DNA of 45,127 bases from Pseudomonadales bacterium. Lineage in GTDB: Bacteria; Pseudomonadota; Gammaproteobacteria; Pseudomonadales; Pseudohongiellaceae. The translations under genes and the position numbers were made by a program. Below are positions 3,536 to 39,527 of the stretch, in pieces; the stretch's first letter is position 1, and the number at the start of each line of letters is the position of its first letter. The DNA lies in NCBI GenBank assembly GCA_022821865.1, contig JAJECW010000117.1, positions 1-45,127 on the forward strand. Direction: 5' to 3'. The notes beneath the pieces are model-generated. The model worked only from the letters and a program-made list of their open reading frames with translations. It was not told the DNA's origin and searched no databases.

Positions 3536-3603
3536 TGATGTGGGCGCGCCCAGTGCCATGACGAGAATTGCTGGATGTCTCCCGGTGCGGTTGCCTTTCA
3601 TGA

Positions 3604-8750: not shown

Positions 8751-8898
8751 GGCTGTTTGTCTCAACTATTGCATTATCGTGTCCCGCTGCTTCGAAACGG
8801 CGGGCAGGCGTCATCATCGGTCTATGTGTAACCCCGCTTAAGCCCTCGGGTCCATTTGCCTTCTCTGCACACTACTCTCTTTGATTGGATTCGATACC

Positions 8899-11371: not shown

Positions 11372-11465
11372 TTCGGATACTGTATATCCCCATAGTGCAT
11401 TACGCAATGAAACCGGGAAAATCAGCTAAACTGGGTGTGGATCGTTTGATTGCTTTGGAGAATTC

Positions 11466-20159: not shown

Positions 20160-21458
20160 CTACCGGGATTCCGCCGCCCAGAATTGCCGGTAGAGTTCGC
20201 CGCGAAACGCCTCGTCCCTGCCGTAGCCATCTTCGTTGATCCAGAAAATCTGCGACATGACGATGCCGACGAATTCCCGTTTCGGATCGACCCAGAAGTG
20301 GGTTCCCTCGTATCCGCCGCCGACCCACAAGCCCTCTTCTCCCTGTTCGCGGGTCCTGGTCGGCTCGCCGGTCACCCACAGGTTGAAGCCGTTGTGGCCT
20401 TCGGGATTGTCGAGTTGCGTATGCGGGGCGTAGATATCCTCGACCGTCGCGGTCTCCAGAAATCTCGTACCGCTGAGCGTTCCGTGATTGAGCAGCATTC
20501 TCAGGAAATCCGCGTAGCCGTCGGCGGTGGCCACCATGCCCTCGCCGCCGAGATAAAGTTCGTGCTCCGGGTCGTAGTCGGGCACGTCCGGCCCGAAGAT
20601 ATCGAGTTCGCCGGGATACGCCGGTCGCAAGCTTCCGCCCTGGCCGCTGATTCTCGGCGGCAAATCGGCGTCCGGCGGCAGATCGTATTGCAATCCTTCG
20701 ATACCCAGCGGTCCGGTCAGGCGCTCTTCCACCAATTGCTTGAGACTTAAGCCCGTTGCGCGTTCGGCCACCATTCCCAGGATTGTGGTATTGGTCCCGT
20801 AGTAATAGGTGGTTCCCGGATGCTGGATCAGCGGCAGGTCCGCGAGGCGGGCGATAAATTCGCCGGAATCCGCCGCCGTTACCACGTTGCTGTCGGCGAG
20901 TGCGGAGTCGATGCACGGCATCCCCGTGGTGGCGTAATAGAAACCGGCTTCATGGTTGATCAGGTGCCGCACCGTCATCACGGTGTCCGCGGGGACGAGT
21001 TCAAACGGACAGGCCGGGTCCGCTTGCCCGAAATCGAGTTCAGCCAGACTCCTGCCATCGGAAGTGACCGCGACCCGCATGTCGGAAAGTTCCGGAATGT
21101 AGTTTGCGACTGGATCTTCCAGGCTGAGGACGCCGTCTTCCACCAGGTCGAGAACCACCGAGATGGTGACGATCTTGCTCATGGACCAGATTCGAATCCA
21201 CGACTGCCCGTCGATCTGCGCGTCCGGCAGCAGGTCCCGATTCACGACACTGTGCTCGTATGCGACATTGCCGTCGCGGTCTTCGAGCCGGGCGTAGAGG
21301 AAGGGGTAGTGGCCCTCTTCGACGAAGCGGTCGAGGACCGCGTCGAGGGCGTCCGGGTCGGGAACTTCGATTTGCGCCAGCGCAAAATGCGCCCAGAAAC
21401 ATAAAACAAAGGCGGGCGCCAATGAGCCCGCCTTCGTCAAGAGCGCCGATCCGATCAT
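20160..21458 (-). CDS. Serine hydrolase of the beta-lactamase/class C family
   Basis: 432 residues with a signal peptide ending near FALAQ. SxxK motif SMSK (Ser 92, Lys 95) and YYYGTNT in the place of the YxN motif, with GGGYEGTHFW as a possible third element. This family includes esterases and D-aminopeptidases as well as true beta-lactamases; context in a glucan operon favours a non-antibiotic esterase or unknown periplasmic role. Lies 11 bp after the TonB receptor gene and 74 bp before the GH13 gene. Confidence 0.88.
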   Translation of the reverse strand: MIGSALLTKAGSLAPAFVLCFWAHFALAQIEVPDPDALDAVLDRFVEEGHYPFLYARLEDRDGNVAYEHSVVNRDLLPDAQIDGQSWIRIWSMSKIVTISVVLDLVEDGVLSLEDPVANYIPELSDMRVAVTSDGRSLAELDFGQADPACPFELVPADTVMTVRHLINHEAGFYYATTGMPCIDSALADSNVVTAADSGEFIARLADLPLIQHPGTTYYYGTNTTILGMVAERATGLSLKQLVEERLTGPLGIEGLQYDLPPDADLPPRISGQGGSLRPAYPGELDIFGPDVPDYDPEHELYLGGEGMVATADGYADFLRMLLNHGTLSGTRFLETATVEDIYAPHTQLDNPEGHNGFNLWVTGEPTRTREQGEEGLWVGGGYEGTHFWVDPKREFVGIVMSQIFWINEDGYGRDEAFRGELYRQFWAAESR

Positions 21459-21469
21459 TGGCGCCGGCG

Positions 21470-24241: not shown

Positions 24242-24329
24242 GGTATTCCTCTCAGTTTCACCGATCCGGCGATGTCTGGAATTCAGCTATCCTGAACTTA
24301 TAGGCTTATGCGCCCGGTTTAGCAATAAA

Positions 24330-24345
24330 ATGCATACGTATTCAT
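24330..24345. promoter_or_regulatory. Candidate LacI-type operator upstream of TonB receptor
   Basis: ATGCATACGTATTCAT is a near-palindrome (14 of 16 positions symmetric) centred on ACGT, about 90 bp upstream of the receptor start and in the short gap after the sulfatase. LacI-family sugar repressors commonly bind such 14-16 bp palindromes with a central CG. No second copy was seen ahead of the halogenase operon. Confidence 0.45.
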
Positions 24346-24356
24346 ATCGGAGCGGC

Positions 24357-26075
24357 TCAAAGCCCTCCGTCCTGCTCAGAAATCATGCGGCGAAAAAACG
24401 CCTCTTCGCCGATCGTCTCGTACGCCCGGCGCAATAGCTCGCGCCGCTCGTCGAAGCTCATTTCCTGGCCTTGCTGTTCCGGCGTCCATCGCAGCAGTCC
24501 GTCCCCGAAAACCACGCCGAAATAGGGCGCATAGCGAAATTCTTCCGCTCTGCCGAGCATGCGCGGATCCTGCCGCGATTCGAGATAGGAAAACAGCCGG
24601 TCGCCGAGGCTGTCCAGCAATTCCGCGTGGCTTCCGTCCGCGGCGAGATTGCGCATCTGCCAGGCGTCGGCGCGAACGTCGTACAGTTCGAACTCGCTTC
24701 TCGGCCCGAAACTCAGCGCATGCAAGGCAGGGTATTCCCCGGCGTTTTCTTCCATGAACGATTTCGCCGGGCCACCGTCCACGTCGAGCGGAATCGCGTC
24801 CGGCCTCGCGTTCCAGATCAGCAGATGATCGTGCGTCCTGATTGCCCGCGACGGAAAGGACATTCCGCCCGAATCCGGATAAAACCCGTGCCGCTCGCGG
24901 TACATGTAAACCGCTTCCCGCGCCGCCTGGCCGGGCGTGCCGGGGATCAGCAGGGGCGCCAGGCTCTGTCCGCTCATTTCCGCTTGCGCTTCCACGCCGG
25001 CGAACTCCAGGAAAGTAGGCGCGATGTCCGTCAGGCTGACCAGGTTTTCGATCCTGCGGCCGCCGGCGATGTTGTCGCCCCACCAGAACAGCAACGGCAT
25101 TCTCGTGCCGTAGTCGTAAAGAGTCGCCTTGGCCCGCGGGAAGGGCATGCCGTTGTCCGAGGTGAATACGACGATGGTATCGTCCTGCAGCCCGCGCCGG
25201 TCCAGCGCTTCCATCACCCGGCCCACCTGGGCGTCGATGTATTCGATTTCGGCGTAATATTCCGCGATGTCGTCGCGTACTTCGCCGGCGTCGGGCATGA
25301 ACGGCGGTACCGTTACGGCGGCGGAATCTATGCCGAGCGCAGCCGCCACGCCCTCGGTATAGCCGCGATGCGGCTCGAAAGTTCCCATCCAGAACGAAAA
25401 CGGCCGGGTCTCGTCGGCGGCGTCCAGGAATGCCTCGAAATTCGCCGCGTAATCGATATCCGACATCTGCAATTCTTCGAACCGGTCGCCGTAAGGCCGG
25501 CTTCGAATCCCGTTCCAGGGCCGGCCTGCCGGATTCACGTCCCTGTCGATCAGGAATCCGGGCGCCCAGCCCTTTCCCGTAGCGCCGACCCGGTAGCCGT
25601 GTTGCGCCAGGATTTCGGTCCAGGTCGCGAACCGGGCCGGCAGATAGCCCCAGAGCGTTGCCCCCTCTTCCAGTTCGAAACCGTTCCTGCCGGTGAGAAT
25701 GGACGCCCTGGAAGGAGTGCAGGAAGGCGTGCTGACAAATGCGTTTTCGAAAACGACGCCTTCACGCGCCAGCCGGTCGAGATTGGGCGTGCGCACCTCG
25801 TCACTACCATAGGCGCCCAGGTGCGCCCAACTCAGGTCATCGGCGATGATGAACACGATGTTCGGCGGTGCTGTCGTGTTTGTGGCCGGTTCCTGCGGCA
25901 CCGGCGAACATCCGCCGGACAAGAGCGCATGCAGCGGCAGCAACAGGGCAAACCAAGCTGGATTCCATCCCTTCGCCGCTGGCAGGGGAAACCTAACGGA
26001 TGATCGGCACTGCGCCAAAGCCGAGACTCTACCCCTCAGTCTTGTTACGAAGTCCGGTTGAGAATTTTTCAACAA
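24357..26075 (-). CDS. Type I sulfatase lipoprotein, start uncertain
   Basis: Up to 572 residues. The formylglycine motif CTPSRASILTGR is intact (Cys to be converted) after the metal-binding NIVFIIADDLSWAHLG; TSDNGMPF later supplies further metal ligands. A lipobox-like LLSGGC precedes the mature protein, so periplasmic and membrane-anchored. There is no in-frame ATG before the lipobox; the frame opens at a TTG at 26075 and gives an unusually long, Arg-rich leader. The native 5' end may have been lost where the island begins. Substrate: probably a sulfated sugar of the adjacent locus; the exact bond is unknown. Confidence 0.88.
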   Translation of the reverse strand: MLKNSQPDFVTRLRGRVSALAQCRSSVRFPLPAAKGWNPAWFALLLPLHALLSGGCSPVPQEPATNTTAPPNIVFIIADDLSWAHLGAYGSDEVRTPNLDRLAREGVVFENAFVSTPSCTPSRASILTGRNGFELEEGATLWGYLPARFATWTEILAQHGYRVGATGKGWAPGFLIDRDVNPAGRPWNGIRSRPYGDRFEELQMSDIDYAANFEAFLDAADETRPFSFWMGTFEPHRGYTEGVAAALGIDSAAVTVPPFMPDAGEVRDDIAEYYAEIEYIDAQVGRVMEALDRRGLQDDTIVVFTSDNGMPFPRAKATLYDYGTRMPLLFWWGDNIAGGRRIENLVSLTDIAPTFLEFAGVEAQAEMSGQSLAPLLIPGTPGQAAREAVYMYRERHGFYPDSGGMSFPSRAIRTHDHLLIWNARPDAIPLDVDGGPAKSFMEENAGEYPALHALSFGPRSEFELYDVRADAWQMRNLAADGSHAELLDSLGDRLFSYLESRQDPRMLGRAEEFRYAPYFGVVFGDGLLRWTPEQQGQEMSFDERRELLRRAYETIGEEAFFRRMISEQDGGL

Positions 26076-26209
26076 AGCCTTTCCCGAATTCTTTAGTATG
26101 GGCGGGGCATTTCATCGTGAGTGGGAGAAGATTTTCATGTGGCGACCTTCCTGCACCTGCGTAAGGATGCATGATAACCTTCTGAAAACAAAACTTGGCA
26201 TACGGACCC

Positions 26210-26479
26210 ATGATAAGAACTAACGTACGAAGGCTGGACGAAGAAGTGGTGATTCGCCAAAGGCTACGCGCATCCCGGAACAAACGATCGCTTGAGGGTG
26301 AAGCGCGGCATATCCTGAAATGTGCCGCCGCCGATATGGTGCCGAAGCGCGCCCTTTTCCTACAGGTAATTGAGCGGCTGAGGCCCTTGAACAAGGGTCG
26401 CAAACACATTCCATCGGAAATGCTCATCCGAGAGGACCGTGACCGAGGCCATTGCGATACTGAATTCTCGGTGACTTGA
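26210..26479 (+). CDS. FitA-like ribbon-helix-helix antitoxin, orphan
   Basis: 89 residues from ATG 26210. IRTNVRRLDEEVVIRQRLRASRNKRSLEGEARHIL is the FitA/Arc-type ribbon-helix-helix, and the tail SEMLIREDRDRGH matches the toxin-binding end of FitA proteins. The PIN toxin FitB that should follow with an overlapping ATG is absent; the DGQHR gene begins three bases after the stop instead. Either an orphan antitoxin captured at the island edge, or now the regulator of the downstream genes. Confidence 0.8.
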   Translation: MIRTNVRRLDEEVVIRQRLRASRNKRSLEGEARHILKCAAADMVPKRALFLQVIERLRPLNKGRKHIPSEMLIREDRDRGHCDTEFSVT

Positions 26480-26482
26480 GGC

Positions 26483-28798
26483 ATGACCGATCAGTACTTA
26501 GGTCCCCTCGTCCTGGGAGACGAGGTCAATTCCGAGCTTCGTCGGCGGAAGAACAAGGACTTCCTTAAGACAGTCTCGGGCTCGACAAAGAAGCTTATCG
26601 CAGAGAAAGTTAAGCTGGAAGAAGAGGATGGCTGGCGCGTCGTCCGAAAAAACGCCAAGTCCACCCGTATGGCCAAGCCGAAGCCAGCAGACGAGCAGCT
26701 AGAAGACGAGGTCTGGTCAATTCTGGCCCAAATGGGCTTTAAGGAGATGAGCAAGGGCCGAAATTTCACAATTGCAGTCGAAGATGGACTTCCTCCCCGG
26801 CAAATTGATGTTTTCGCCAAAGACGATGAGAGCATCATAATCGTAGAGTGTACGAGATGCGACGAGCCCAGCAAGAAGAGTATGGCAAGCTTGATCGAGA
26901 AGATCAGGGCAATTCGGGAAAGCGTACACAAAACGATCCTAAATGCCTACGGACGGCGGATTAAACACAAGGTCAAGTTTGTCATCGCAACAAGGAACAT
27001 CTCATGGAGTGAGAATGATCTTGCCAAGTGCGAGGAAGCACAGGTCGCAGTCATCTCCGATGGTGAACTCAACTACTATGCGACTCTCGTACAACACCTC
27101 AAGCACGCTGCCCGCTATCAGTTTCTCGGGCATATGTTCGGTGGGAAGAAAATCGACGGACTCGCCCATAAAGTCGTAGCAACGCGCGGCAAGATGGGCG
27201 GTCGGACATTCTACACGTTCCTAATACCGCCTGACGAACTTCTCAAGATCGCTTATGTCGGCCACAAGGCGAGCCGCGACATCGAGAACCTAGAGACTTA
27301 CCAGCGTATGCTCCGGCCGCAACAACTCAAAAAAATAGCTGAGTACATCAATAACGGCGGCAGGTTTCCGACCAACATCGTTGTGAACCTCAAAACAACG
27401 AAAAAGTCGAGTCTCAAGTTTGAAGAGAAAGAGGGTGAAGAAGAACTGGGTGTGTTGTACCTGCCGCCCATTTATGCCTCAGCGTGGATCATTGACGGTC
27501 AGCACAGGCTCTACGGCTACGCCTATGCGCGTGAAAAAGAAGGCTTCAATGAGGACTCAAGCGTTCTGCCCGTTCTCGCCTTTGAAAACCTGCCAGCCGA
27601 CGAGGAGATGAATCTTTTCATCGACATCAACTCTAGGCAGGTCAAAGTCAACACCGGACTGCTTGTGGAACTCTACGCCGACCTGCACTGGAATTCCTCC
27701 GACACAGAAGAGGCCTTCCAGGCTCTTCTTTCGCGCTTAGCATCGCGCCTCAATAGTGATCGCACCTCACCACTTCATGACAGGATGGTCGTTACCGGCA
27801 AGAAGAAGACACAGTTTCGCTGTCTGACGCAGACTTCAGTCCGCGACGGTCTGAAAGTCTCCAAACTCTTGGGAGTTTTTAGCAAAGGCGCGATAGTACC
27901 GGGGCCGCTCTTGACCGACATGGTCGACGGCCATGACGCCAATCTCAGGAAAGGTATGGCCGTCATCTCGGAGTGTCTCCGGATGTTCGCAACCGGGATG
28001 CCAGACCACTGGAATATAGGTGATGGACCGGGAGGCTATATATGCACGAATAATGGCATCCGCGCTCTATTCCTCGTCCTCAAGGATATTGCAGACCACA
28101 TCCGTTGGAAAGATGGGACGGAGCTTTATCTGTTTAATTCCGACGACACATTTGAGTCCGTCAAGCCGTACTTCCAAGTGCTCGTTGACTATTTTAAGAG
28201 CGCGAAAGCGCAGGAAATCTTAGCATTCCGACGTACCGGCTCGTCTCTAACAGCCGTGCAGCGACAGGCTTGGGGCATGGAAGCCCACATCAATGAGAAG
28301 ATTCCGAGCTTTCTTCCCCCGGGTCTAAAGGCATATCTTGAATCGCGTGACGAGGCTGGAACTGAAGAGGCAGCGGCGAAGGTCACCAAGATCCATAAAC
28401 GACTATTTGATTATGTTATTGGTACGCTGAAGGGACACTTCGGCACGCAGAACAAGGAGTGGTGGACCAAAGGAATACCGCTCAAGATCAGGCAGGAATG
28501 TTCCGCCGCGTGGGAGGCGACAAACCGGAAGGGCGAGGAGGAGTCGCAACTCTATCTAATCAGTTATGTTGAGATTTGCCACCATAACTGGAACTTGGTT
28601 AAAGACGTGATCTCGCTCGGTACAAAGGATAAAGACAACAAGCAAAAAAATACGAAATGGATCCGTGATCTTAATGAGATTCGAAAAATCACGACACATC
28701 CTGAGCGCGGCGTGCTTACGACTAACCAAGTCACATTCGTGAATGAGATAAACGAAAAGGTTGAGCGGTGCTTCCCAGCCGAAGGCGCCCAGAGCTAG
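26483..28798 (+). CDS. DGQHR-domain protein with N-terminal nuclease-like domain
   Basis: 771 residues. Residues ~70-210 look like a PD-(D/E)XK fold: QLEDEVWSILAQMGFKEM, RQIDVF (Asp 109), then IIIVECTRC (Glu 122, with Thr in the usual Lys position). The central domain carries the diagnostic DGQHR (338-342) in SAWIIDGQHRLYGY, then LFIDINSRQVKVNTGLL. This motif defines the DGQHR/DndB family known from DNA phosphorothioation loci and other modification clusters. The C-terminal ~250 residues are unassigned and may recognise DNA or a partner. First of four collinear genes. A role in sensing or cutting DNA according to its modification state is inference. Confidence 0.85.
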   Translation: MTDQYLGPLVLGDEVNSELRRRKNKDFLKTVSGSTKKLIAEKVKLEEEDGWRVVRKNAKSTRMAKPKPADEQLEDEVWSILAQMGFKEMSKGRNFTIAVEDGLPPRQIDVFAKDDESIIIVECTRCDEPSKKSMASLIEKIRAIRESVHKTILNAYGRRIKHKVKFVIATRNISWSENDLAKCEEAQVAVISDGELNYYATLVQHLKHAARYQFLGHMFGGKKIDGLAHKVVATRGKMGGRTFYTFLIPPDELLKIAYVGHKASRDIENLETYQRMLRPQQLKKIAEYINNGGRFPTNIVVNLKTTKKSSLKFEEKEGEEELGVLYLPPIYASAWIIDGQHRLYGYAYAREKEGFNEDSSVLPVLAFENLPADEEMNLFIDINSRQVKVNTGLLVELYADLHWNSSDTEEAFQALLSRLASRLNSDRTSPLHDRMVVTGKKKTQFRCLTQTSVRDGLKVSKLLGVFSKGAIVPGPLLTDMVDGHDANLRKGMAVISECLRMFATGMPDHWNIGDGPGGYICTNNGIRALFLVLKDIADHIRWKDGTELYLFNSDDTFESVKPYFQVLVDYFKSAKAQEILAFRRTGSSLTAVQRQAWGMEAHINEKIPSFLPPGLKAYLESRDEAGTEEAAAKVTKIHKRLFDYVIGTLKGHFGTQNKEWWTKGIPLKIRQECSAAWEATNRKGEEESQLYLISYVEICHHNWNLVKDVISLGTKDKDNKQKNTKWIRDLNEIRKITTHPERGVLTTNQVTFVNEINEKVERCFPAEGAQS

Positions 28799-28911
28799 GG
28801 GGCGTTCGCGGTGAGCGCCGGGGTAAGCGTCACCATCCCTGCCGGTAGGGCGGGATCGACAACCATCCCTTGAGTTGGTAGGCTGGCATAGGATCTGAAT
28901 CAGGGCAGAAA

Positions 28912-30540
28912 ATGGCCAACAAAAATATCCTTCTTATCGAACCGGGCTACCGTAACAAGTACCCGCCGCTAGGACTTATGAAAATTGCCCAGTATCACGG
29001 TCCGAATGGCAAGCGGGACAATGTTCGGTTCGTGAAGGGCGAAGACCCGGCGGCCTACAAAATGGCGTGGGAGCGGGTGTATATTACGACGCTCTTCTCA
29101 TTTGAGTGGGAGCGAACGGCGCGTAGTATCGACTATGCCATTGATTTGGTAGGCGGGCAGGCGCACCGTATTTTTGTCGGTGGTATCGCTGCCTCGCTCA
29201 TGCATGAGAACTATATCGCAGAACCGCGCTGGCGAGGAGTGCGCTTCATCAAGGGGCTTCTCGGTGAAGCACCCGCCGTGTCGCTTAGGCTAGACCCATT
29301 TGAGGATGAACTCTATGCCGATGACATAGACGGCAAGCCCATTGAGGACCTCGTGCCTGACTACAGTATCCTCGACCATATTGAGTATCAATATCCGGTC
29401 AATGACGCTTACTTTACCTATGCCTCGCGCGGCTGTGTCCGTAAATGCGCCTTCTGCGGCGTGCCAAAGCTTGAGGGCGGTCAGCGCGATACAAATTCGC
29501 TGAGTGAGGTCGTGGAAGGCGTCAGCAAGCTCTACGGCGAAAAGCGTGACCTGATCCTGATGGACAATAATGTGGTCGCCTCTGCGAAATTTAGAGAAAT
29601 TATCGCCGAGATCATCGCTCTTGGTTTTGAGCGCGGTGCCAAGCTCAAGCGTGGACGATATGAGCTTCAGCGGCGCGTAGACTTTAATCAAGGGGTCGAT
29701 GCCCGAATTCTTTGCAAAGACCCAATGTATTTGCAGCAGCTGGCACGGATTGCGATCAAGCCTCTTCGTATCGCCTTCGATCATCTTGGAGTAAAAAAGC
29801 CATACGCCCTGGCTATCCGGTACTCGGCAGACGCCGGGCTGACCGAGCTGTCGAACTATATGCTATATAACTTTATGGATAGCCCGGCTGACCTGTTTGA
29901 GCGAATGCGACTCAATGTGACGCTAAACGAAGAACTTGGTATCCGTATTTTCTCATTCCCGATGCGCTATCAGCCGGTCACGCGACCTGATCGGGGCCAT
30001 GTCGGCAAGAATTGGAATTCCTACTATCTGCGCTCAATGCAGGTGATCCTGCAGGCCACACACGGAATTGTCAGCGGCGCGCCAGAATTCTTCCGAAAAG
30101 CATACGGCGATACGTATGACGAATTCGAGAATATCTTGTTTCGGCCCCACCACTACATCTTCAATCGCAACTGGTACGAACAACATGACGGAAGGCAAGA
30201 GTATGATGAGTTTCAGGCGGCAATGAATACGCTGTCTGAAGGTGAAAAAAACGAGCTTTTGGGGTATTTGTGTACACACAATAAAAATGAATACGCTCGC
30301 AACCTTAACGAGCTGGCCACCGGTAAGTTGCGTGAAGCCGCACGGTTCTTTGTGCCGATGTCCAAGGCGGACGAAGCACAGATCTGGGAGGCGCAAAAGC
30401 GTCGGCGCGTTGAGAATACCAGTGCTTTTCTCGTGCCCGAGGATGAACGGGTCGAAGACGCCGGACTAAGCGATGAAGATGTGCAACCGGCTTCGAAAGT
30501 AAACAAGCAATTACGAGACATAACGCAAGTCTACGCGTGA
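28912..30540 (+). CDS. Radical SAM protein with B12-binding-like N-terminus
   Basis: 542 residues. The opening KNILLIEPGYRNKYPPLGLMKIAQY resembles the cobalamin-binding domain of B12-dependent radical SAM enzymes, but the typical cobalt-binding His signature is not obvious. The [4Fe-4S] cluster motif is Cys 175, Cys 179 and Cys 182 in ASRGCVRKCAFCGVP, as C-x3-C-x2-C. NNVVASAKFREI and the following repeats fit the radical SAM barrel. Substrate unknown; a nucleic acid or protein modification is possible from context. The gap to the DGQHR gene is 113 bp; 22 bp separates it from the ATPase gene. Confidence 0.9.
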   Translation: MANKNILLIEPGYRNKYPPLGLMKIAQYHGPNGKRDNVRFVKGEDPAAYKMAWERVYITTLFSFEWERTARSIDYAIDLVGGQAHRIFVGGIAASLMHENYIAEPRWRGVRFIKGLLGEAPAVSLRLDPFEDELYADDIDGKPIEDLVPDYSILDHIEYQYPVNDAYFTYASRGCVRKCAFCGVPKLEGGQRDTNSLSEVVEGVSKLYGEKRDLILMDNNVVASAKFREIIAEIIALGFERGAKLKRGRYELQRRVDFNQGVDARILCKDPMYLQQLARIAIKPLRIAFDHLGVKKPYALAIRYSADAGLTELSNYMLYNFMDSPADLFERMRLNVTLNEELGIRIFSFPMRYQPVTRPDRGHVGKNWNSYYLRSMQVILQATHGIVSGAPEFFRKAYGDTYDEFENILFRPHHYIFNRNWYEQHDGRQEYDEFQAAMNTLSEGEKNELLGYLCTHNKNEYARNLNELATGKLREAARFFVPMSKADEAQIWEAQKRRRVENTSAFLVPEDERVEDAGLSDEDVQPASKVNKQLRDITQVYA

Positions 30541-30562
30541 TCGAAGGATTGGAGCTAAGGGC

Positions 30563-32110
30563 ATGACTAATGCGGCGCGGAAGGACGAGGACAGCTTTGA
30601 CGAGTCAGCAATTGTTGTTGGCAAAAACATCTTGGAACTTGTTAGCAGTTCCATGTACATCAATCCACTTTCGATCTTCCGCGAATATATCCAGAACGCG
30701 ACCGATGCTGTTGATGATGCGGTGGCAGCGGGCCTTCTTCCTTCTATTGATGACGGCCTTATCGAAATCAACCTAGATCATATCGACCGCCGAATCGTGA
30801 TCCGTGACAATGGCAATGGTCTCGCCAATAAGGACTTTGCGAAGCGGATGCTCTCGTTTGGGGCTAGCGAGAAACGCGGTACCGATGCACGTGGATTTCG
30901 TGGTGTCGGGAGACTGGCAGCCCTCGGCTATGTGCAGCAGCTATTATTCCGTTCCCGCGCCAAGGGCGACACGGAGGTCATAGAGGCTTCTTGGGACGGA
31001 CCGATTGTCAAGCGTATGCTGGCCTCCAATAACATAGAATCAGACCTGCACTCGATAGTTAGAGAGGCCGTAACATTAAAGCGGCTAGAGCCCGGGGGTT
31101 TTCCAACGCACTTCTTTGAAGTTGAACTCGTCAAGCCACGTCGCATCGCTAATGACCGGCTGCTCAATGAAATCGAGATTGAAAGTTTCGTTAGCCAAGT
31201 CTGCCCCTGCCCCTTTGCCCCGGATTTCTCGTTTGGAGAAGAAATCGCCGCGCTGCTCGCCCCTTACGGACGCGCGGGCAAAGCGTACAAGATACACATC
31301 AACGGTGCGGAAGAGCCGGTTTATCGACCTTATCGTGACCAAGTCGAATACTCTGAAACCAAGCGCGCCTCACTTCATTGCCTAAAGACCTTCGAGATTG
31401 AGAGTATAGATGGTGAACTTGCTGCCGTCGGCTGGCTGATCCATCATGACTATCAGGGAGCGATACCGTCTGCGCAGGGCATTCGCGGGCTGCGCGGCCG
31501 GGTCGGCAATATCCAGGTCGGCCATGACCGGCTGTTCCTAGAAGTATTCCCAGAAGACCGTTTTTGCTCATGGACCATAGGTGAGGTTCATATACTCGAT
31601 AGCCGTGTTGTACCTAACGGCCGTCGCGACGAATTTGAAAGTAACACGCATCTCGACAATATCATCGCCTATCTCAGGCCTATTGGTGCCGAAGTGGCGC
31701 GAGAATGTCGTGTGTCCTCTCAAAAAAGAAATCGTCTCAAGACGTTTGAGCTGGCGACCGACAAAATTTACGAAAAGCTTGACATCTTGAAGCAGGGAGC
31801 GGTTTCCAGACATTTTGCTAAGTCAGTTAAGGATGAAATCGCGGCGTTGTTTACAGAAATGAGAAAGGCCGCGGATTTTGATCTTTTCAATGATGAAGAC
31901 CGCCGCACCATGAGAAGTCAACTCGCTACGATAGAGGAAGTGGTCAATGCGCATATCACGAAGACTGAAAATGACATCTTCGAGACCTTGCCAGCGCGGA
32001 AGCGCGCAACCTATAAAGAAATTTTTGATCTTATCTATGATTGCTCCGTTAACAAAGTCGCTGCAAAAAGTTTGATTGATCGAATGTTGAATCGTCTGTC
32101 ACGTCCATGA
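30563..32110 (+). CDS. GHKL (Hsp90/MutL-like) ATPase
   Basis: 515 residues. N-terminal Bergerat fold: FREYIQNATDAVDDA (Glu 41, Asn 45, the N box), IRDNGNGL (Asp 82, G1 box) and ARGFRGVGRLAALGY (~110-122, G2 region). Downstream NIQVGHDRLFLEVFPEDRFCSWTIGEVHIL and VPNGRRDEFESN match the second domain of Hsp90/MutL-like proteins found in bacterial defence operons. The C-terminal ~130 residues are helical and charged, perhaps for dimerisation. ATP-driven clamp or switch action is inferred from the family. Third gene of the run; 22 bp after the radical SAM gene. Confidence 0.92.
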   Translation: MTNAARKDEDSFDESAIVVGKNILELVSSSMYINPLSIFREYIQNATDAVDDAVAAGLLPSIDDGLIEINLDHIDRRIVIRDNGNGLANKDFAKRMLSFGASEKRGTDARGFRGVGRLAALGYVQQLLFRSRAKGDTEVIEASWDGPIVKRMLASNNIESDLHSIVREAVTLKRLEPGGFPTHFFEVELVKPRRIANDRLLNEIEIESFVSQVCPCPFAPDFSFGEEIAALLAPYGRAGKAYKIHINGAEEPVYRPYRDQVEYSETKRASLHCLKTFEIESIDGELAAVGWLIHHDYQGAIPSAQGIRGLRGRVGNIQVGHDRLFLEVFPEDRFCSWTIGEVHILDSRVVPNGRRDEFESNTHLDNIIAYLRPIGAEVARECRVSSQKRNRLKTFELATDKIYEKLDILKQGAVSRHFAKSVKDEIAALFTEMRKAADFDLFNDEDRRTMRSQLATIEEVVNAHITKTENDIFETLPARKRATYKEIFDLIYDCSVNKVAAKSLIDRMLNRLSRP

Positions 32111-32392
32111 ACCATGTAATGGTGTCCCCGCTTTTGGCACAAGCGAGGACCATTTGGGCCTATTGCACCGCACCGTGCCGCAGATAAGAGACGACGTGAC
32201 GGAGAGTTGTTGTTTCTCCTTGTCGCTGAGCATCAAAGGAACGGCCGGACGACCGTGTATCCATATTCAACCCAGGTACACCTTAAATCGGTCCTCAAAC
32301 TGTCCTGTAAACTAGGACCACGCCAAGTCTAAGCAGGAGGGCAGGGGGAACATGCTTAATGGTTGCAACAACTTCAGGTCTGGGAGGAATAC
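32111..32392 (+). promoter_or_regulatory. Gene-free gap with imperfect hairpin before the helicase
   Basis: 282 bp without a gene. An imperfect inverted repeat (32118-32133 with 32141-32154, sharing AATGGT..CC.CGCTT) lies just after the ATPase stop; without a T tract it is not a standard terminator and may be an attenuator or operator. The helicase's own ribosome site GGAGG is at 32383-32387. The gap suggests partly separate control of the helicase. Confidence 0.35.
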
Positions 32393-35300
32393 ATGACAGT
32401 ACACCTGACAGCACGTCTCGCTTGGCACGATGATGGTTGGAACGGTCGTATCTGCAAACGGCCGGAATGCAACACCTACTGCGTTGGGATGCACTCCTAT
32501 CCGGGTAATGTAATTGCCCGTGAAAGAGACCTCGGAGGGGAACTGCCACTCGCAGGTCAACCCGTTGCCAAGCTCACGGGAACCGACCTGCCCCCTTGCA
32601 TTTACAGCGTCAACGCGTTTGGACCCGAGTCCATACGCGGTTACTCAAATCCGCCCGACTTTTTTCGGGACGGTGCAGAACGGACTGAGTGGGACATTCC
32701 TGAAGCAACGGTTTGTGTCTGGCCCTATGAGGCAATGTATGGCGATGACGTCTATGACGAAGCGGGCCGGCGGGACAATAACCGCCGTTCGGCCAATGCA
32801 GATCAGTTCTTTGCGGAGATTGAGGACAACAAAAGTCTCATCTTCTACTATGCAAACTACTCCAATCCTTTCTCGGAAGAAGAAAGCTCGCGCTATGTCC
32901 TCTTAGGTGTTTCGCGAGTTAAAAAGGTCGGTGGCCGTCTCATCTATGATGAGTCTAATGATTACATTCGCGAACGGTATGCGGGTGGTATGATCTGGGC
33001 ACGCAATGTTTCCTCGCACTATCCACATGAAGGCTTGCGACTTCCGTATCACCGCTATCGCGACGACCCCGATACTCTGAAACGCATTGTGCAATTTCCA
33101 GAGAATCCGCGTACCTGCAAATACGGTGCTCGCCTTCTAACCAATGATGACGCGATAGGACTGCTGGAGCAGTTCTTGAGCGCAGTCCATGAACTCAAGG
33201 TGATTGGTGATAAGAGTGAGGATTGGGATGAGCGCGAGCGTTGGCTGCTGGGCTGCATCGTTGAGCTTTGGAGTAAGCGAGGACTATATCCTGGCCTTCC
33301 CAACGTCATGCGCTTTCTCGGTGCCGATGTAGCGACTGCGCCTGCCCGAGCCCTCATAGAAAAAGGTGAGTCAAAAGAAGCACACAGGCTCTTCTTTGAA
33401 GCGATTGAATCCGGTTCTGAGGTGTCGAGTTTTGGATTGTTCGGTAAGCCGCTGCAGAAGCTAAGTAGACAGTGGCGGTTAAAACCAGAAACCGCACAGT
33501 CCCTTTTACGCGATGTCCTGCCACGCTTTAATCTCGAAATCGAACAGATAAAGCTTATCGTCTGTGAGGAGGCAGCTACACGCAACGCTCATAGTTTACC
33601 GGATGACGTCCAGGCGCCACTTCAAAATCCCTACTTGCTTTGTGAAGGCTATGTTGGCAATACCCCCGATGACCTGATTCCTTGGGGAACCATTGATCGC
33701 GGTGTACTCCCATCACCAGAGTTGGGTGGTGAAACGCTTGCTGAAATGGAATTCGACGATGCGCGCCGTTTGCGCGCTTTGTGCGTTGAACATTTACGTC
33801 GCGAACCAAATCAGACTTTCAGAGCGGCCGACACTGTGCTGGCTGAATTGAATGCCCGTCTGGCTAAACTTCCTGAATGGAAGGTGGCTTCCTTCACAGA
33901 GCGGTACTTCGAGGTAGACCGCGACATCCTAGAGGAAACGCTTGTGCTCCGGACAGAAAGTGATCGCCTCTGGCTTTATCTGAAAGATGTCTATGAGGAT
34001 GAACGCTCGGTTGAGGAGGCGCTGACGAAGCTCGCTGGTCGACCGGACATGGATCTGACTCGGCCTTTCACTGACGAAGACTGGTGCGATGAAATCCGCG
34101 ATATCAGGAGCCCGCTCTTGGAAAAGGCCCGCGAGCGGTATGAGCAAGCGGTTCATGCACAATCAGAGGCCTGTGCCGCAGTCTTTCGGCGTCCGCTCGC
34201 TCTTGTTACGGGGGCAGCAGGGACAGGCAAGACATCGGTGATTTGCGCCATCATACGCGCTGTTCGTCAAACGGAAGGCGATGGCGCGCCACTCACGGTT
34301 TTGGCACCCACAGGCAAGGCATCAGACCGCGTTCGTGCCAAGATGCACGAACGCGAAATCGAACGGGTTGCGACATCGACGGTTCATTCCTTTTTGGCTA
34401 AGGGTGGGTGGCTCAATGACAACCTAACCTTCAAGAGCACAGGTGGTAAGCGTGAAGGTAGCGGTACCATTATCGTCGATGAGGCTTCAATGCTTGACCT
34501 AAGCTTAATGGCCTGCTTGGTTCGTGCCATTGACTGGCGACAAGTAAGGCGCTTTATTCTAGTCGGCGACCCGAACCAGTTGCCGCCTATTGGCCGCGGA
34601 CGTGTTTTCGCCGACACAATTCACTGGATTGCCGAGAAGCAGTCAAATAGCATTGCTCGGCTCGAACACAATCTCAGGCAGCTCGAAAATGAGGTAGAAG
34701 GCAATGGCACTGCTATCCTGCGTCTGGCTGATCTTTTTATCACTGCAAACGCACGCGACGACGGACAGCCAACTCCTTCCGATGCTGAGGAGTTGTTAGC
34801 AAAGGTCCACAAAGGCGGTGATGTCGACGCGGATTTGCGCGTTATCTATTGGGATGAGCCGGCAACATTACCAGAGACGCTTATTCAGACCATTGAAAAG
34901 GAAATGGCAGACCGCACCGGCGAGTCTCTCAATTCCGAAAAGCCTTACGAGCTATGGCGTGCTGCATTTGAATGGAAGCCTGAAAAGTACCAGGTACTTA
35001 CGCCGCATCGAGGTGAGCTTCATGGTGTTGAGGCGCTTAATGAGGCCGTTCAGAATCGCATTGCCGCCGGTGTTATGCACCGCTACGGCCTTCTCGATGG
35101 CATTACACTTTATGACAAGGTAATCCAGTATCGCAATCGACCGCAGTCCAAACCGATTTGGGCGTACAACTTCAATACGCGTAAAGCTGAGCGCGTCGAG
35201 ATTTTCAATGGCGAGATTGGATTTGTTCAAAAGCACAGCTTCGACAGAAACCCTGGTAGGGGGTTGAAGCGTTTCCAGGTCAAGTTTGAACGCAAAGAGC

Positions 35301-35998
35301 ATCTTGCCGTGGGTTATGGCAGTGACCTCTCTGCAAACGGCGGCTTTGAGCAAGTTGAAGACAATCTGGAGCTCGCTTACGCGATCTCAGTACACAAAGC
35401 GCAGGGCAGTGAATTCAACCATACCTATGTATTGGTGCCACGAACCAGGGGCCGCTCACTTTCCTCAGAACTTCTTTACACAGCCCTAACTCGTGCTCGG
35501 CAACACTGCACCCTGCTTGTACAGGGTGACGTGTCTACATTGCTTTCCGCGCGACGCCCGGAGAACGTCCAGACCGGGCAGATAAACTCTTCGCTGTTCG
35601 ATGGCTTTTTTCGCGCCGTTCCAGACGAACTCATCAATCGAATGGGCTGGTACGAAGAAGGACGCATTCATAAAGCACTTAGCGGCGATATGGTGCGATC
35701 CAAATCTGAGCTATTGATCGCTACCCTTCTACATGAGCGTGATGTTGCTTTTGCCTATGAAGTCCCTTTACGCGCTCCAGATGGGACAATGTGCTTGCCG
35801 GATTTTACAATCTTCTGGCAAGGAGAGACTTGGTACTGGGAACATTGGGGCATGATGTCATCTAACTCTTATCAGGTACAACGCAAACGAAAAATCGCAT
35901 GGTACGATAAGCATTTCCCCGGCCACCTGGTCGAAACTTTCGAGGGGCGTAAGCTAAGCGAGCATGTTGCACAGCACATTGATGAGAAGTTCTCTTGA
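32393..35998 (+). CDS. RecD-like SF1B helicase with C-terminal nuclease-like domain
   Basis: 1201 residues from ATG 32393 with GGAGG five bases before. The first ~590 residues have no recognised domain. The SF1B core follows: Walker A GAAGTGKTS (607-615), Walker B IIVDEAS (Asp 696), VGDPNQLPPIGRGRVF, LEHNLRQ and AYAISVHKAQGSEFNHTYV with ELLYTALTRARQH (motifs V-VI), as in RecD/TraA helicases. The final ~90 residues (VRSKSELLIATLL, PDFTIFWQGETWYWEHWGMM) match the PD-(D/E)XK-like module with WEHxG found at the C-terminus of many UvrD/RecD helicases. Expected ATP-dependent DNA unwinding with cleavage. Ends 168 bp before the convergent HEPN gene. Confidence 0.93.
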   Translation: MTVHLTARLAWHDDGWNGRICKRPECNTYCVGMHSYPGNVIARERDLGGELPLAGQPVAKLTGTDLPPCIYSVNAFGPESIRGYSNPPDFFRDGAERTEWDIPEATVCVWPYEAMYGDDVYDEAGRRDNNRRSANADQFFAEIEDNKSLIFYYANYSNPFSEEESSRYVLLGVSRVKKVGGRLIYDESNDYIRERYAGGMIWARNVSSHYPHEGLRLPYHRYRDDPDTLKRIVQFPENPRTCKYGARLLTNDDAIGLLEQFLSAVHELKVIGDKSEDWDERERWLLGCIVELWSKRGLYPGLPNVMRFLGADVATAPARALIEKGESKEAHRLFFEAIESGSEVSSFGLFGKPLQKLSRQWRLKPETAQSLLRDVLPRFNLEIEQIKLIVCEEAATRNAHSLPDDVQAPLQNPYLLCEGYVGNTPDDLIPWGTIDRGVLPSPELGGETLAEMEFDDARRLRALCVEHLRREPNQTFRAADTVLAELNARLAKLPEWKVASFTERYFEVDRDILEETLVLRTESDRLWLYLKDVYEDERSVEEALTKLAGRPDMDLTRPFTDEDWCDEIRDIRSPLLEKARERYEQAVHAQSEACAAVFRRPLALVTGAAGTGKTSVICAIIRAVRQTEGDGAPLTVLAPTGKASDRVRAKMHEREIERVATSTVHSFLAKGGWLNDNLTFKSTGGKREGSGTIIVDEASMLDLSLMACLVRAIDWRQVRRFILVGDPNQLPPIGRGRVFADTIHWIAEKQSNSIARLEHNLRQLENEVEGNGTAILRLADLFITANARDDGQPTPSDAEELLAKVHKGGDVDADLRVIYWDEPATLPETLIQTIEKEMADRTGESLNSEKPYELWRAAFEWKPEKYQVLTPHRGELHGVEALNEAVQNRIAAGVMHRYGLLDGITLYDKVIQYRNRPQSKPIWAYNFNTRKAERVEIFNGEIGFVQKHSFDRNPGRGLKRFQVKFERKEHLAVGYGSDLSANGGFEQVEDNLELAYAISVHKAQGSEFNHTYVLVPRTRGRSLSSELLYTALTRARQHCTLLVQGDVSTLLSARRPENVQTGQINSSLFDGFFRAVPDELINRMGWYEEGRIHKALSGDMVRSKSELLIATLLHERDVAFAYEVPLRAPDGTMCLPDFTIFWQGETWYWEHWGMMSSNSYQVQRKRKIAWYDKHFPGHLVETFEGRKLSEHVAQHIDEKFS

Positions 35999-36166
35999 GG
36001 AGGGATGCAGAGAATTCGCCTTCTAAGATACCAAAGCAACTGGCGCGCAGATTAGGAGTTCTGTAGATTCAAAGTCTTCATACTCATTTGTGAAAAGTTT
36101 TTCCAGTATGTTGCCAATATGATAACTGTTTACAGCTTGGCTTCCCTACATGAGTCCGAATCCTAT

Positions 36167-37669
36167 TTAGGAATCGACTTTTTCCTGTTCAGATTTTTCT
36201 CTGAGTGCTTTCACTAATTCAGCGGCCCATCGATGATTGTTTAGCAAGCTGATAGCATATTCAATGTCTTCCGAATTAATCCAATACTTCGGTTTACCCA
36301 CACTAATCGACGCTGATATTTCAGAAACTATCTCTTTTCTTTCCTTGGAGTTAAGCATTTTTAGAGCAGAAACAACCTTGTCAAGATGTAGATTCTTGAG
36401 GCGGATCTGGTCTTTCTCATTTGTGAATGATTCAAGGGAAATACCGCGAAGTACATCTACTGGCCATGAATCGGATTTATTCGCAAGTTCTCCTAGAAAC
36501 ATACTTGCAGAATTTCCTCTCCCTTCGGCACATTGTAATATGTTTCGACCCAACTCAACCTGTTGCGCTTTAACAAGTTCAGCGGCTTGGCTTGGGCCAT
36601 TCGATACTATAAGGTCGATTGCCGGATTTTGTTCGTACCAATCTGAGGTTTTCATCGCGCAAATCAAATTGGTAAAGCTGGTTACTGTACTGAGATTGGC
36701 AGAACGAATTTCGCTAATTCCCATATTCGATACATGCTTGAGAAAGCGATCCTGTTGTCGATTTGACAATGCCTCGCCATTTTGAAGTCGTTCAAGAAAT
36801 TTAAGAACACTAGCATGTTCAACGGATCTTGTCAGGATCGAGCCAACCAATGAATCTTGAGCTCTCATGCCGATTAAACCGAATATCTCCCTATTTATAC
36901 ACACATGCGATAGCACTTTTGGAAACTCGATCACTTTGCCGTGCCAGTCCTCTTTTGTGAATACGCTTACACCGGCTTCCAGAAGTATCGCTTGAGAAAA
37001 CCAAATTCCTCGACGAAAAAACACGGACAATGATGGGTCATCTGCGATTTCTTCTAGGTTTTTCCAATACTTCTCAAGAAGAAATCCGTAAATGCTTTCA
37101 TCTAATCTGGGCAATATTTCCTTTGCGAATGCCGTAACTACTGCCCGTTGATCATCCAAATAGCTAATCTCTTCAATAAGAGACTTGAGCAATTGTTTAC
37201 AAAAACCATGCTTCAATTTGACTGGCTTGGACAGCACATTTTCTACCACTGCAGATGCAGCATGCAATATTTGCTCGGATGTTGGCGATTCCTCGTATGG
37301 ATGCCCGTATAGACATCGCATTTCATAGATATGATAAAGAACAGTATAGCTAGAATCAGATAAGAAGCCGTATTCGCGAGCTTTATCAAGCACAAATTTG
37401 TCGACAGCCTTGTGATCTTGCTCTTTCTCTTCAATCGAACCAACAATTTCACCAGCAACATTATCCCGCGTCTGTGCTTCACGAAAACGTCGCTTTAGTG
37501 ATTCGGCACAAGCAAGCCATATCATCAGATATGCAGCGCGAAGTACGCCTGCTTCTGCCGCTTGGACGGCATCGTTAAACAACGGAAGGTCTTCAGTAGA
37601 CAAAATCTTTTCCGCATAGATACTCAAGTCCACTTTCTTGGTAGTGGAATTTTCCAAAGATTTTTGCAA
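36167..37669 (-). CDS. HEPN-like domain protein, large helical
   Basis: 500 residues, clearly AT-richer than flanking genes. The start is a TTG at 37669 with GGAG seven bases upstream; no ATG is better placed. Residues ~25-150 resemble a HEPN fold: AAYLMIWLACAESLKRRF, then YHIYEMRCLYGHPY with R118-x4-H123, the RNase signature of active HEPN proteins. The remaining ~350 residues are helical and unassigned, perhaps a target or trigger sensor. HEPN proteins are common RNA-cutting effectors in defence systems. It is convergent to the helicase, so its expression is separate. Assignment rests on the motif and the fold-like pattern only. Confidence 0.6.
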   Translation of the reverse strand: MQKSLENSTTKKVDLSIYAEKILSTEDLPLFNDAVQAAEAGVLRAAYLMIWLACAESLKRRFREAQTRDNVAGEIVGSIEEKEQDHKAVDKFVLDKAREYGFLSDSSYTVLYHIYEMRCLYGHPYEESPTSEQILHAASAVVENVLSKPVKLKHGFCKQLLKSLIEEISYLDDQRAVVTAFAKEILPRLDESIYGFLLEKYWKNLEEIADDPSLSVFFRRGIWFSQAILLEAGVSVFTKEDWHGKVIEFPKVLSHVCINREIFGLIGMRAQDSLVGSILTRSVEHASVLKFLERLQNGEALSNRQQDRFLKHVSNMGISEIRSANLSTVTSFTNLICAMKTSDWYEQNPAIDLIVSNGPSQAAELVKAQQVELGRNILQCAEGRGNSASMFLGELANKSDSWPVDVLRGISLESFTNEKDQIRLKNLHLDKVVSALKMLNSKERKEIVSEISASISVGKPKYWINSEDIEYAISLLNNHRWAAELVKALREKSEQEKVDS

Positions 37670-37783
37670 TTCAGTTCTCCAACACCAAAGTTATTTGCTC
37701 ACCGCTGTCACGTAGCTCTCCTGTGCGTTGCATTAGGCAATCCAAGTTGACGCGGCGGCATTGTGAAGGCGGGCGATTAGGCA

Positions 37784-39505
37784 TCAGATTCTTTCGTAGC
37801 CTTCATAGCGCACCCAATCGAAGTCGGCGTATTCGTCCGATGCGTTGCCGTTGCCGGAACTGTAGACGCCCAGGTAAGCGCCGGTATATCCGCGGCTCAA
37901 CAACCTCGCGGCGTCGGTTTCGGCGAATACGGTGAAGCTGTCGCCCTGGTCGAGCGAATACTCGTAGCGGTACTTGTGGTCACGCGATACGACCCGCAGC
38001 ACGATTTCGCCGGTGTAATCGTCGAGCGCCTGTTGTTCAAGCGTGACCGGCGCCCGGTCTCTTTCCGCCAGCGTCAGTTGCAACAGGTTTTCCCCGCCGC
38101 TTCTCGCCACCGTGAAGTTCAGAAAATTATTGTCTTTCTGAAACAGGCTGACTCCGGCCTCGACGTTTTCCTGTTCCGGTTCGAACTCCATCCTGACGCT
38201 GTACCGGAAATCACTTTCCTGCTGCCGCACGCCCATCAGTGCGGCGCGCCCGCGCTCGGCGATCACGTTTTCATGGGCGTAAAGCCGCAGATATCCCTCC
38301 CGGCTGTCCAGGGAATAGATGCCGGGCAGCGGCACTCTCCTGAAATTCCATTGCAGATCCAGGCTTTCGCTGTCGAAATCGTCGATGAAGGTATCGTTCC
38401 GGTATTGCGGAGCGTCTTCGAAAGGCAGCGGCGTCGATCTTTCGACTCTGCCCGTGGCCGGCGCAACGACAGGCCATTCGTATCTGGGGTCCTTCCACTC
38501 GAACGGCTCCCGTTCCCATTCGACCGGCACCAGATGCGATTCGCGCCCCATATTGGAATCGCCCTGCTCGTCGTTGCGCTTGCCGAGCGCCACCATGTAC
38601 CAGCGCCCGTCCGCCAGTTCCACCATGTCCGCGTGGCCGGTGCTATGCACCCAGTTGCTGTAGGACAGATTGCGCGAGGTGAGAATCGGGTTCCTGTCGT
38701 TGGATATGTAGGGGCCGGTGATTTCGTCGCTGACCGCGATCATCACCGCGTGGTTGTAACTCGTGCCGCCTTCGGCAATGAGCAGGTAATACCTGCCGTC
38801 TCGCTTGTAGATATGCGGACCTTCCGCCCAGGTGCCGTCGCAGGCGCCGCGCCACAGGAAGTGCCTGTCGCCGGTGAGCCGCCAGTTTTCGAGATCGAGT
38901 TCCTGCAGCCAGATCTCGCCCTGGCCGGGGAATTCCGGATCCGCGGGGCCGTGATTGCCGACGTACCAGGCTTTGCCGTCGTCGTCGAAAAATATGTCGG
39001 GGTCGATGCCCGGAGCGCCTTCGATCACATGGGGCTCGGACCACGGCCCGGCCACATCTTCCGCGGTAATGATGAAGTTCACCATTTCCGTCGGCTGTCC
39101 GTTGCCGGGGTTGTAGACGTTGGTCGTGATGACATAGAACAGGCCGTCGTGCCAGCGGATGGACGGAGCGTGTATGCCGCCGTCGGACTGGACGTCCACG
39201 AGATTGACCGCGTCGCGATAGAGTTCGGGGTCGTGGATGCCGTATCCGGCCAGCGTCCAGTTGACCAGGTCCCGGCTATGATGGATGGGCAGGCCGGGAA
39301 AATACTCGAACGTGGAGTTGACGATATAGAAGTCGTCGCCGACCCGGACGATGGAAGGGTCGGGATAGCCGCCGCGCAAGATCGGATTGCGGAAAGTTTC
39401 CGACTGCGCCGAGGCTTCGGGCGGGAACAGCGCCAGGCAAAGCGCTGCGCCAAGACAGGACAGGAATTGCGTGACTGATCTTGCGGTACGGGGATTTCGA
39501 ATCAT
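37784..39505 (-). CDS. GH43 glycoside hydrolase, beta-xylosidase/arabinofuranosidase type
   Basis: 573 residues from ATG 39505, preceded by AGGTGAG; a GTG three codons earlier is also in frame. Signal peptide ends near PEASAQSE. Five-blade propeller residues: catalytic base Asp in GGYPDPSIVRVGDDFY, the pKa-modulating Asp in GIDPDIFFDDDGK and the acid Glu in WAEGPHIYKRDGRYYL. The C-terminal ~200 residues form a beta-sandwich typical of xylosidase-type GH43 members. Expected to release xylose or arabinose from hemicellulose in the periplasm. Follows the sugar permease gene by 22 bp in the same operon; the island begins just past its stop. Confidence 0.94.
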   Translation of the reverse strand: MIRNPRTARSVTQFLSCLGAALCLALFPPEASAQSETFRNPILRGGYPDPSIVRVGDDFYIVNSTFEYFPGLPIHHSRDLVNWTLAGYGIHDPELYRDAVNLVDVQSDGGIHAPSIRWHDGLFYVITTNVYNPGNGQPTEMVNFIITAEDVAGPWSEPHVIEGAPGIDPDIFFDDDGKAWYVGNHGPADPEFPGQGEIWLQELDLENWRLTGDRHFLWRGACDGTWAEGPHIYKRDGRYYLLIAEGGTSYNHAVMIAVSDEITGPYISNDRNPILTSRNLSYSNWVHSTGHADMVELADGRWYMVALGKRNDEQGDSNMGRESHLVPVEWEREPFEWKDPRYEWPVVAPATGRVERSTPLPFEDAPQYRNDTFIDDFDSESLDLQWNFRRVPLPGIYSLDSREGYLRLYAHENVIAERGRAALMGVRQQESDFRYSVRMEFEPEQENVEAGVSLFQKDNNFLNFTVARSGGENLLQLTLAERDRAPVTLEQQALDDYTGEIVLRVVSRDHKYRYEYSLDQGDSFTVFAETDAARLLSRGYTGAYLGVYSSGNGNASDEYADFDWVRYEGYERI

Positions 39506-39527
39506 GGGTCTCACCTGTGCGTTTGAC

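Follow-up and report, generated by a model that had tools for sequence, protein, structure and literature searches.

Proteins with a DGQHR motif belong to two systems that modify DNA, Dnd and Dpd, according to the accessible parts of PMC10853773 and PMC11888242. In Dpd the synthesis operon encodes the DndB-type protein DpdB next to an enzyme that modifies bases, and a restriction operon includes an SNF2-type helicase (PMC11888242, same parts), and DndB has been placed in the ParB superfamily (PMC10853773, same parts). Sets of a GHKL ATPase, an SF2 helicase and a nuclease have been described in restriction-modification (R-M) systems (available sections of PMC2292703), and the HEPN survey PMC3710099 reports a Swt1-type HEPN domain fused to ParB, with Saro_3948 as an example and no system described in the available portion of its text. 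Here we analyzed a DNA stretch of 45,127 nucleotides from a Pseudomonadales bacterium (contig JAJECW010000117.1 of assembly GCA_022821865.1; the whole stretch is called the window below), in which a long DGQHR protein (DGQHR_L), a radical S-adenosylmethionine enzyme (rSAM) and a GHKL ATPase are encoded one after the other. The initial annotation had joined these three genes and a RecD-like helicase-nuclease gene downstream into a candidate four-gene system. Judged by gene order in other genomes, the real unit is a putative rSAM–GHKL pair, not four genes, and DGQHR_L seems to be a replaceable partner module and not a fixed sensor. The three genes and the predicted domains of the first are:

26483..28798, plus strand: DGQHR_L (P0001), candidate effector, 771 amino acids, three predicted domains
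P0001, Q107-x-D109 ... E122-C-T124: N-terminal PD-(D/E)XK-like domain
P0001, D338-G-Q-H-R342: ParB/Srx-like DGQHR domain
P0001, R734-x4-H739: HEPN-like C-terminus
28912..30540, plus strand: radical SAM enzyme (rSAM, P0002), candidate marking enzyme, 542 amino acids, motif C175-x3-C-x2-C182
30563..32110, plus strand: GHKL ATPase (Hsp90/MutL-like, P0003), constant rSAM neighbour, 515 amino acids, PF13589 at 43 bits

The family calls DGQHR, radical SAM, GHKL and RecD-like, made earlier from the letters alone, hold by profile matches and for the rSAM also by fold. DGQHR_L matches TIGR03187 (203 bits) and PF14072 (53 bits), and its DGQHR ParB/Srx-like, PD-(D/E)XK-like and HEPN-like domains are predicted from fold and motifs; the scores against DpdB in PADLOC (62 bits) and NF041060 (58 bits, cut-off 300) indicate a shared domain and not an equivalog, and a PDB sequence search with this protein returned nothing close. 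The Pfam match of the rSAM (20 bits) lies under its cut-off and the family call is supported by the fold, in which a cobalamin-binding-type N-domain (B12-binding-type Rossmann) is followed by the rSAM barrel with the CxxxCxxC motif present, so that fold and motifs predict an rSAM of cobalamin-binding type. The best PDB sequence matches were RimO for the rSAM (E 0.008) and HtpG for the GHKL ATPase (E 0.003). The cysteine motif is kept in 57/57 genes counted and in 120/120 homologues among the matches listed, 115 of which have exactly 542 residues, and the GHKL motifs RE[YF]-x-QN and G-x-RG-x-G are found in 59/59 genes counted (DNG pattern in 53/59). A viperin-like rSAM was ruled out, as PADLOC gave no match (viperin models included) and the enzyme falls into a different fold group.

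Compared to Dpd, the system likewise has a protein sharing the DGQHR domain of DpdB beside a putative modifying enzyme and an SNF2-type helicase in one of its partner cassettes. It differs in that the rSAM–GHKL pair stands in the place of DpdA, in the composition of the partner cassettes and in the cassette helicase, which scores higher with ZorD (155 bits) than with DpdE (125 bits); neither a TGT-like DpdA nor DndC, DndD or DndE was among the PADLOC or NCBIfam matches of P0001-P0003. The DndB-type DGQHR domain (PF14072) is shared with Dnd/Dpt, whereas here it is joined to nuclease- and HEPN-like domains. With its GHKL ATPase alongside SF2 helicases and RE-fold nucleases the system recalls the paraMORC/GHKL R-M neighbourhoods, and our GHKL protein has the ATP motifs, but the word 'radical' is absent from the part of PMC2292703 available. 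Saro_3948 possibly has the same DGQHR/ParB plus HEPN architecture as DGQHR_L, as far as the accessible portion of PMC3710099 tells; its prefix is that of Novosphingobium aromaticivorans, the host of plasmid pNL1, and Saro_3948 could not be confirmed as a pNL1 gene from that portion. PADLOC scans of 7 window, 10 core or cassette and 10 neighbour proteins and NCBIfam scans of 7 proteins returned no multi-gene system, with no PADLOC match for the rSAM and only weak TmtA matches (16 bits) for GHKL. The statement that the set is no named system is thus upheld for the set, which no PADLOC multi-gene system covers, but not for the helicase, already catalogued alone as PDC-S68. A full-text search of open PMC papers, a scope with subscription journals and most preprints outside it, gave no description of rSAM, GHKL and DGQHR together. 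The system may be a variant among the DGQHR-linked modification systems, and there is a less than even chance that its chemistry is entirely new.

Using a GHKL alignment we scanned one genome per bacterial and archaeal species and obtained 47 loci, which span five phyla if record titles and the labels on the tree are followed. Adding 5 loci from plasmids, 8 from viral contigs and the window itself brought the mapped set to 61 stretches, of which L015 and L049 (contig end; fragments) were dropped as they had no rSAM gene. In all 59 remaining loci rSAM and GHKL are adjacent on the same strand with GHKL after rSAM, at a median overlap of 4 bases and with a gap of zero or less in 41. While 46 of them are the window or came from the GHKL query, 13 (5 plasmid, 8 viral-contig) were fetched via rSAM, so the pairing reflects more than the query. 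The gene-calling profiles were built from the GHKL-query loci and the window, and the counts made with these profiles depend on that set; the rSAMs of L003 and L075 are identical. From 33 viral loci 8 were mapped, excluding L082-L086 (rSAM 40-43%) and 20 weaker, mostly partial ones. In a distant rSAM branch, which was not counted, a second-type GHKL lies directly upstream of the rSAM (L083, L084, L086).

Among 72,556 plasmid records, a full-length rSAM of at least 60% identity occurs in 12 (at most 9 distinct by name; 5 of them are mapped among the 59 and one more was read afterwards). GHKL was found in the same 12 and a short DGQHR protein in these and one weak record. Plasmid pNL1 of Novosphingobium aromaticivorans DSM 12444 carries this system, with genes for a PIN-like protein and a second GHKL, the short DGQHR protein, rSAM, GHKL and DGQHR_L. 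An rSAM profile match of any kind was seen in 12 of 398 genomes sampled from the phylum of the window and clear family members (at least 157 bits) in 4, the window's own included, one being a partial match with an internal stop; such a sparse distribution is as expected for a defence-type gene. Recurrence in unrelated hosts was confirmed for the rSAM–GHKL set in five phyla. From the proposed four-gene set the rSAM–GHKL adjacency stood (59/59), the long DGQHR gene is sometimes present (11/59), both beyond what chance would give, and the RecD-like gene dropped out (within 10 kb of rSAM in 2/59).

By this map DGQHR_L is apparently one of at least two alternative partners of the core. Next to the 11 loci with DGQHR_L, 35 carry an SNF2 cassette (counted by its helicase), none carries both and 13 carry neither. 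The cassette has the order ParB-like, small PD-(D/E)XK-like, SNF2 helicase, ParB-like, where ParB and nuclease were recognized from weak profile matches, motifs and inspection by eye; the small nuclease fits the PD...ExK pattern in 24/29 cases and five do not fit. The rSAM plasmid records show the same split, 5 with DGQHR_L (E 1e-40), 7 with the SNF2 cassette and none with both. For the mapped loci the either/or pattern gives a Fisher p of 9e-6 with kinship ignored, and the rSAM tree (L032 and L046 left out as too short, N-termini trimmed) requires at least nine changes between the two modules. Sphingomonas loci L024 and L027 have rSAMs that are 97% identical and different modules. A short DGQHR protein of about 350 amino acids is encoded near the rSAM in 32/59 loci, with the motif D-C/G-QHR in all 32 genes counted and a score of 61 bits against DpdB; in 17/32 the last 8 bases of its gene, counting the stop codon, are also the first of the rSAM gene.

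Several other arrangements were observed around the core. A PIN_8 protein lies near it in 15/59 loci, often together with a second GHKL, and pairs of a PIN_8 or PIN-like protein and a second GHKL, in either orientation, are seen in L030 (11781-15241), L065, L066, L067, L069 and L215; this pair might be a third module or a separate system. L120 and L083 encode a protein of about 557-574 amino acids with a resemblance to Mad8 (31-36 bits) and a weak one to HerA (13 bits), and such genes were also recognized by eye in L036, L119 and L086, L036 and L120 sharing gene coordinates. The Mad8/HerA-like protein and a partner of 360-410 amino acids sit upstream of the second-type GHKL and rSAM, possibly as a further partner form. 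A large upstream protein in L082 (no Pfam match) and L085 was read as ParB-like, L016 encodes an AbiU-like protein (2656-4647, 112 bits) directly upstream of an rSAM–GHKL pair lacking both main modules, and in viral contig L127 the ParB/nuclease/SNF2/ParB cassette (8528-12425) is followed by an S24-peptidase protein. A recombinase reading of the cassette, taken from gene sizes, was dropped once its sequences had been read as given above, and SNF2 matches in 8 of the 398 phylum genomes (E 1e-60; 205-213 bits, mostly long frames) were judged to be another family.

What stands beside more distant relatives of DGQHR_L bears on the role of the rSAM. Of nine such relatives outside the core family L117 was excluded as partial. 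Seven of the eight full-length ones (27-33% identical) adjoin a D12 Dam-type DNA methyltransferase, five called by Pfam and those of L111 and L115 by a shared FLKWAGGKRW motif, and the eighth (L112) overlaps a distant rSAM gene, so that the rSAM appears to stand in the position of a modification enzyme. In the D12 loci (L110, L111, L113-L116, L118) the PD-(D/E)XK-DGQHR-HEPN-like protein has an intact ECK motif, and DGQHR_L-type protein and D12 methyltransferase apparently form an R-M-like pair of their own. A search for this D12-paired form (E 1e-20) had no match among phage records, and its plasmid matches were confined to the five rSAM-carrying records.

The chromosomal site of the locus was also compared with that of a sister species:

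25950..37782: insert between flanking sulfatase and GH43 xylosidase genes, delimited by BLASTN against sister genome L214 and a drop in GC content
24357-26075, minus strand: flanking sulfatase gene
37784-39514, minus strand: flanking GH43 xylosidase gene

The same-genus genome L214 aligns at 20164-25949 (97.6%) and 37783-39433 (95.7%) with zero BLASTN match (E 1e-10) in between, and since its flanks stop and resume at these positions we regard the 11.8 kb at 25950-37782 as an insert. GC content falls from about 0.59-0.63 in the flanks next to it to 0.505-0.535 over the four genes, and the AT-richer insert noted earlier is thereby borne out on both counts. It holds DGQHR_L, rSAM, GHKL and the RecD-like gene on the plus strand and an R-x4-H protein on the opposite strand; a scan for promoters and terminators gave no more sites than shuffled sequences. 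In L214 about 3.7 kb occupy the same slot and encode an EcoRV-family nuclease (PF09233, 185 bits) and a D12 adenine methyltransferase (126 bits; PADLOC type II methyltransferase 390 bits), and judging from these matches the slot has received an R-M system in a close relative. A GHKL-like gene of 578 amino acids (L214 10217-11950, 26 bits) adjoins this EcoRV-type system in the same slot.

Beyond the rSAM–GHKL pairing, the either/or modules of the mapped loci, the Dam-type neighbours and the EcoRV-type system at the same site, all of which are visible in the sequences themselves, we tentatively favour a model in which the core pair and its exchangeable module would work like an R-M system, the rSAM marking host DNA and the module attacking unmarked DNA. 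The rSAM would put a chemical mark on host DNA, with DNA as presumed substrate and the mark as presumed protection, and the GHKL ATPase likely drives or gates it. The marking core would consist of rSAM and GHKL with or without the short DGQHR protein, as the position of the latter recalls that of DpdB next to DpdA, or of DndB within Dnd. DNA lacking the mark would be attacked by the partner module; we propose this division into core and attack module because the rSAM holds the place that a DNA methyltransferase has next to the same protein family. For the window this attack module would be DGQHR_L, and in such rSAM-paired proteins the altered PD-(D/E)XK-like domain may mainly read DNA and the DGQHR and HEPN-like parts may damage nucleic acid. 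The initial annotation had suggested rSAM marking, DGQHR sensing and helicase-nuclease attack with the ATPase as switch; the idea of rSAM marking plus a DGQHR response gains support from the Dam-type neighbours of DGQHR homologues, and the helicase arm turned out to be separate. More speculatively, and as a possibility that we hold with less confidence, this could be a third DGQHR-linked class of DNA-marking immunity after phosphorothioation and 7-deazaguanine, in which a cobalamin-type rSAM worked by GHKL makes a radical-made mark unseen in bacterial genomes and DGQHR-HEPN, ParB/SNF2/nuclease and HerA-like modules are interchangeable across phyla. If true, radical chemistry would be among the means of bacterial self-marking, as a marking chemistry new to bacterial immunity that widens the DNA marks separating self from non-self, and there would be immune systems that combine a single marking core with attack modules open to exchange. 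As the core is highly conserved and present in named strains like N. aromaticivorans DSM 12444 with pNL1, this is directly testable.

A number of observations weigh against this R-M-like model. The catalytic lysine of the PD-(D/E)XK-like domain is replaced by Thr or Arg in 9/9 aligned rSAM-paired DGQHR_L (D...ECT/ECR), and its position holds Thr in 115/120 homologues among the matches listed, whose genomic context is mostly unread (four others were not matched, one has Met); with the canonical lysine gone DNA cutting by this domain is doubtful, and the 'restriction' domain of DGQHR_L may not cut. Concerning the modules, the supported branches of the rSAM tree yield five independent pairs, in 3 to 5 of which the cassette changes the opposite way over 200 pairings, and the sign test is not significant (p at least 0.0625). 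The 13/59 loci with neither module are explained in part by contig ends and in part by other genes (HerA-like, L036), and the stretches of L010 and L014 break off within a ParB-like gene, which leaves room for both modules in L010. No rSAM was detected on the stretch of one (L127) of the nine viral-contig cassettes found at 40% or more, the distant-branch loci L082 and L085 have no detected GHKL, and the DGQHR_L relative G201 is found in a genome without an rSAM match, though adjoining a methyltransferase. Finally, the best folds for the rSAM include modifiers of tRNA (MiaB), proteins (MgmA, RimO) and small molecules (AprD4, TsrM, OxsB).

These folds also speak for the strongest alternative, namely that the target of the rSAM mark is RNA or protein, or that the enzyme produces a small-molecule signal or inhibitor, and that the modules respond to this instead of to marked DNA. 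DGQHR_L homologues keep the HEPN R-x4-H (116/120 among the matches listed) and not the DNA-cutting lysine, and the HEPN-like domain together with the PIN_8 protein near the core points to RNA. We nevertheless consider this alternative somewhat unlikely: the DNA methyltransferases accompanying 7/8 homologous DGQHR_L proteins, the SNF2 and ParB-like partners, which are DNA-handling families, and the missing PADLOC match of the rSAM, viperin models included, argue against it.

It is clearly less probable that DGQHR_L or the cassette is an abortive-infection effector restrained by rSAM–GHKL in a regulatory, toxin-antitoxin-like unit in which no polymer is modified. Modules exchanging beside a constant pair would also fit a sensor with exchangeable killers, and GHKL proteins are switch-like ATPases, but the conservation of the rSAM cysteine motif argues for catalysis and methyltransferases occupy the same place beside DGQHR_L homologues.

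The four-gene machine with the RecD-like helicase-nuclease as attacking arm is highly improbable and largely refuted by genomic context, since collinearity in the window and a distant RecD-like relative near the core in L038 (326 bits), the second of the two loci mentioned above, stand against a RecD gene near the core in only 2/46 loci having at least 5.5 kb downstream (window included), its catalogue entry as a single gene and three closest plasmid relatives without rSAM beside methyltransferase genes.

The other genes of the insert are:

32393..35998, plus strand (open reading frame from 32363): RecD-like helicase (P0004) with nuclease-like C-terminus, PADLOC PDC-S68, judged outside the system
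36167..37669, minus strand: 500-amino-acid HEPN-like protein with R-x4-H (RCLYGH), PADLOC PD-T7-3 at 21.9 bits, insert cargo outside the system

Four large collinear plus-strand genes had been described and were confirmed at 26483-28798, 28912-30540, 30563-32110 and 32363-35998, the last likelier starting at ATG 32393, which is preceded by a GGAGG resembling a ribosome-binding site and separated from GHKL by a 282-base gap. P0004 is a full-length member of PDC-S68 that shows no difference from it, model positions 1-1200 of 1202 being matched from residue 11 at 1671.5 bits. TIGR01447/01448 match at 191 and 217 bits, under their equivalog cut-offs, the best PDB sequence match is RecD (E 4e-21) and the C-terminus is weakly nuclease-like (PDC-S69, 26 bits, residues 1103-1184). 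At least 80% of P0004 is covered in 7 plasmid records, the three closest (78%, 52% and 45%) having as neighbours a type ISP R-M enzyme, a type I R-M system and genes for methyltransferase and helicase; another record (26%) carries an rSAM as well, about 70 kb off, and the search in viral contigs found nothing. Its proposed place as fourth member of the set was given up in favour of PDC-S68 as a separate single-gene candidate, and the gene is best read as apparently independent cargo of the same insert.

For the HEPN neighbour reported at 36167-37669 the motif speaks in favour, but it had no Pfam match and the PD-T7-3 match is weak; the gene lies where GC content reaches its minimum in the window (0.41 at 36001-37500). 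The antitoxin gene reported nearby was not seen in the list of open reading frames of 26000-38000, where small frames had no profile search. Outside the insert, a type II R-M pair on the minus strand (8899-11048; REase_II 403 bits and C5-cytosine methyltransferase 521 bits in PADLOC) sits in a second lower-GC stretch (0.53-0.58) of the window.

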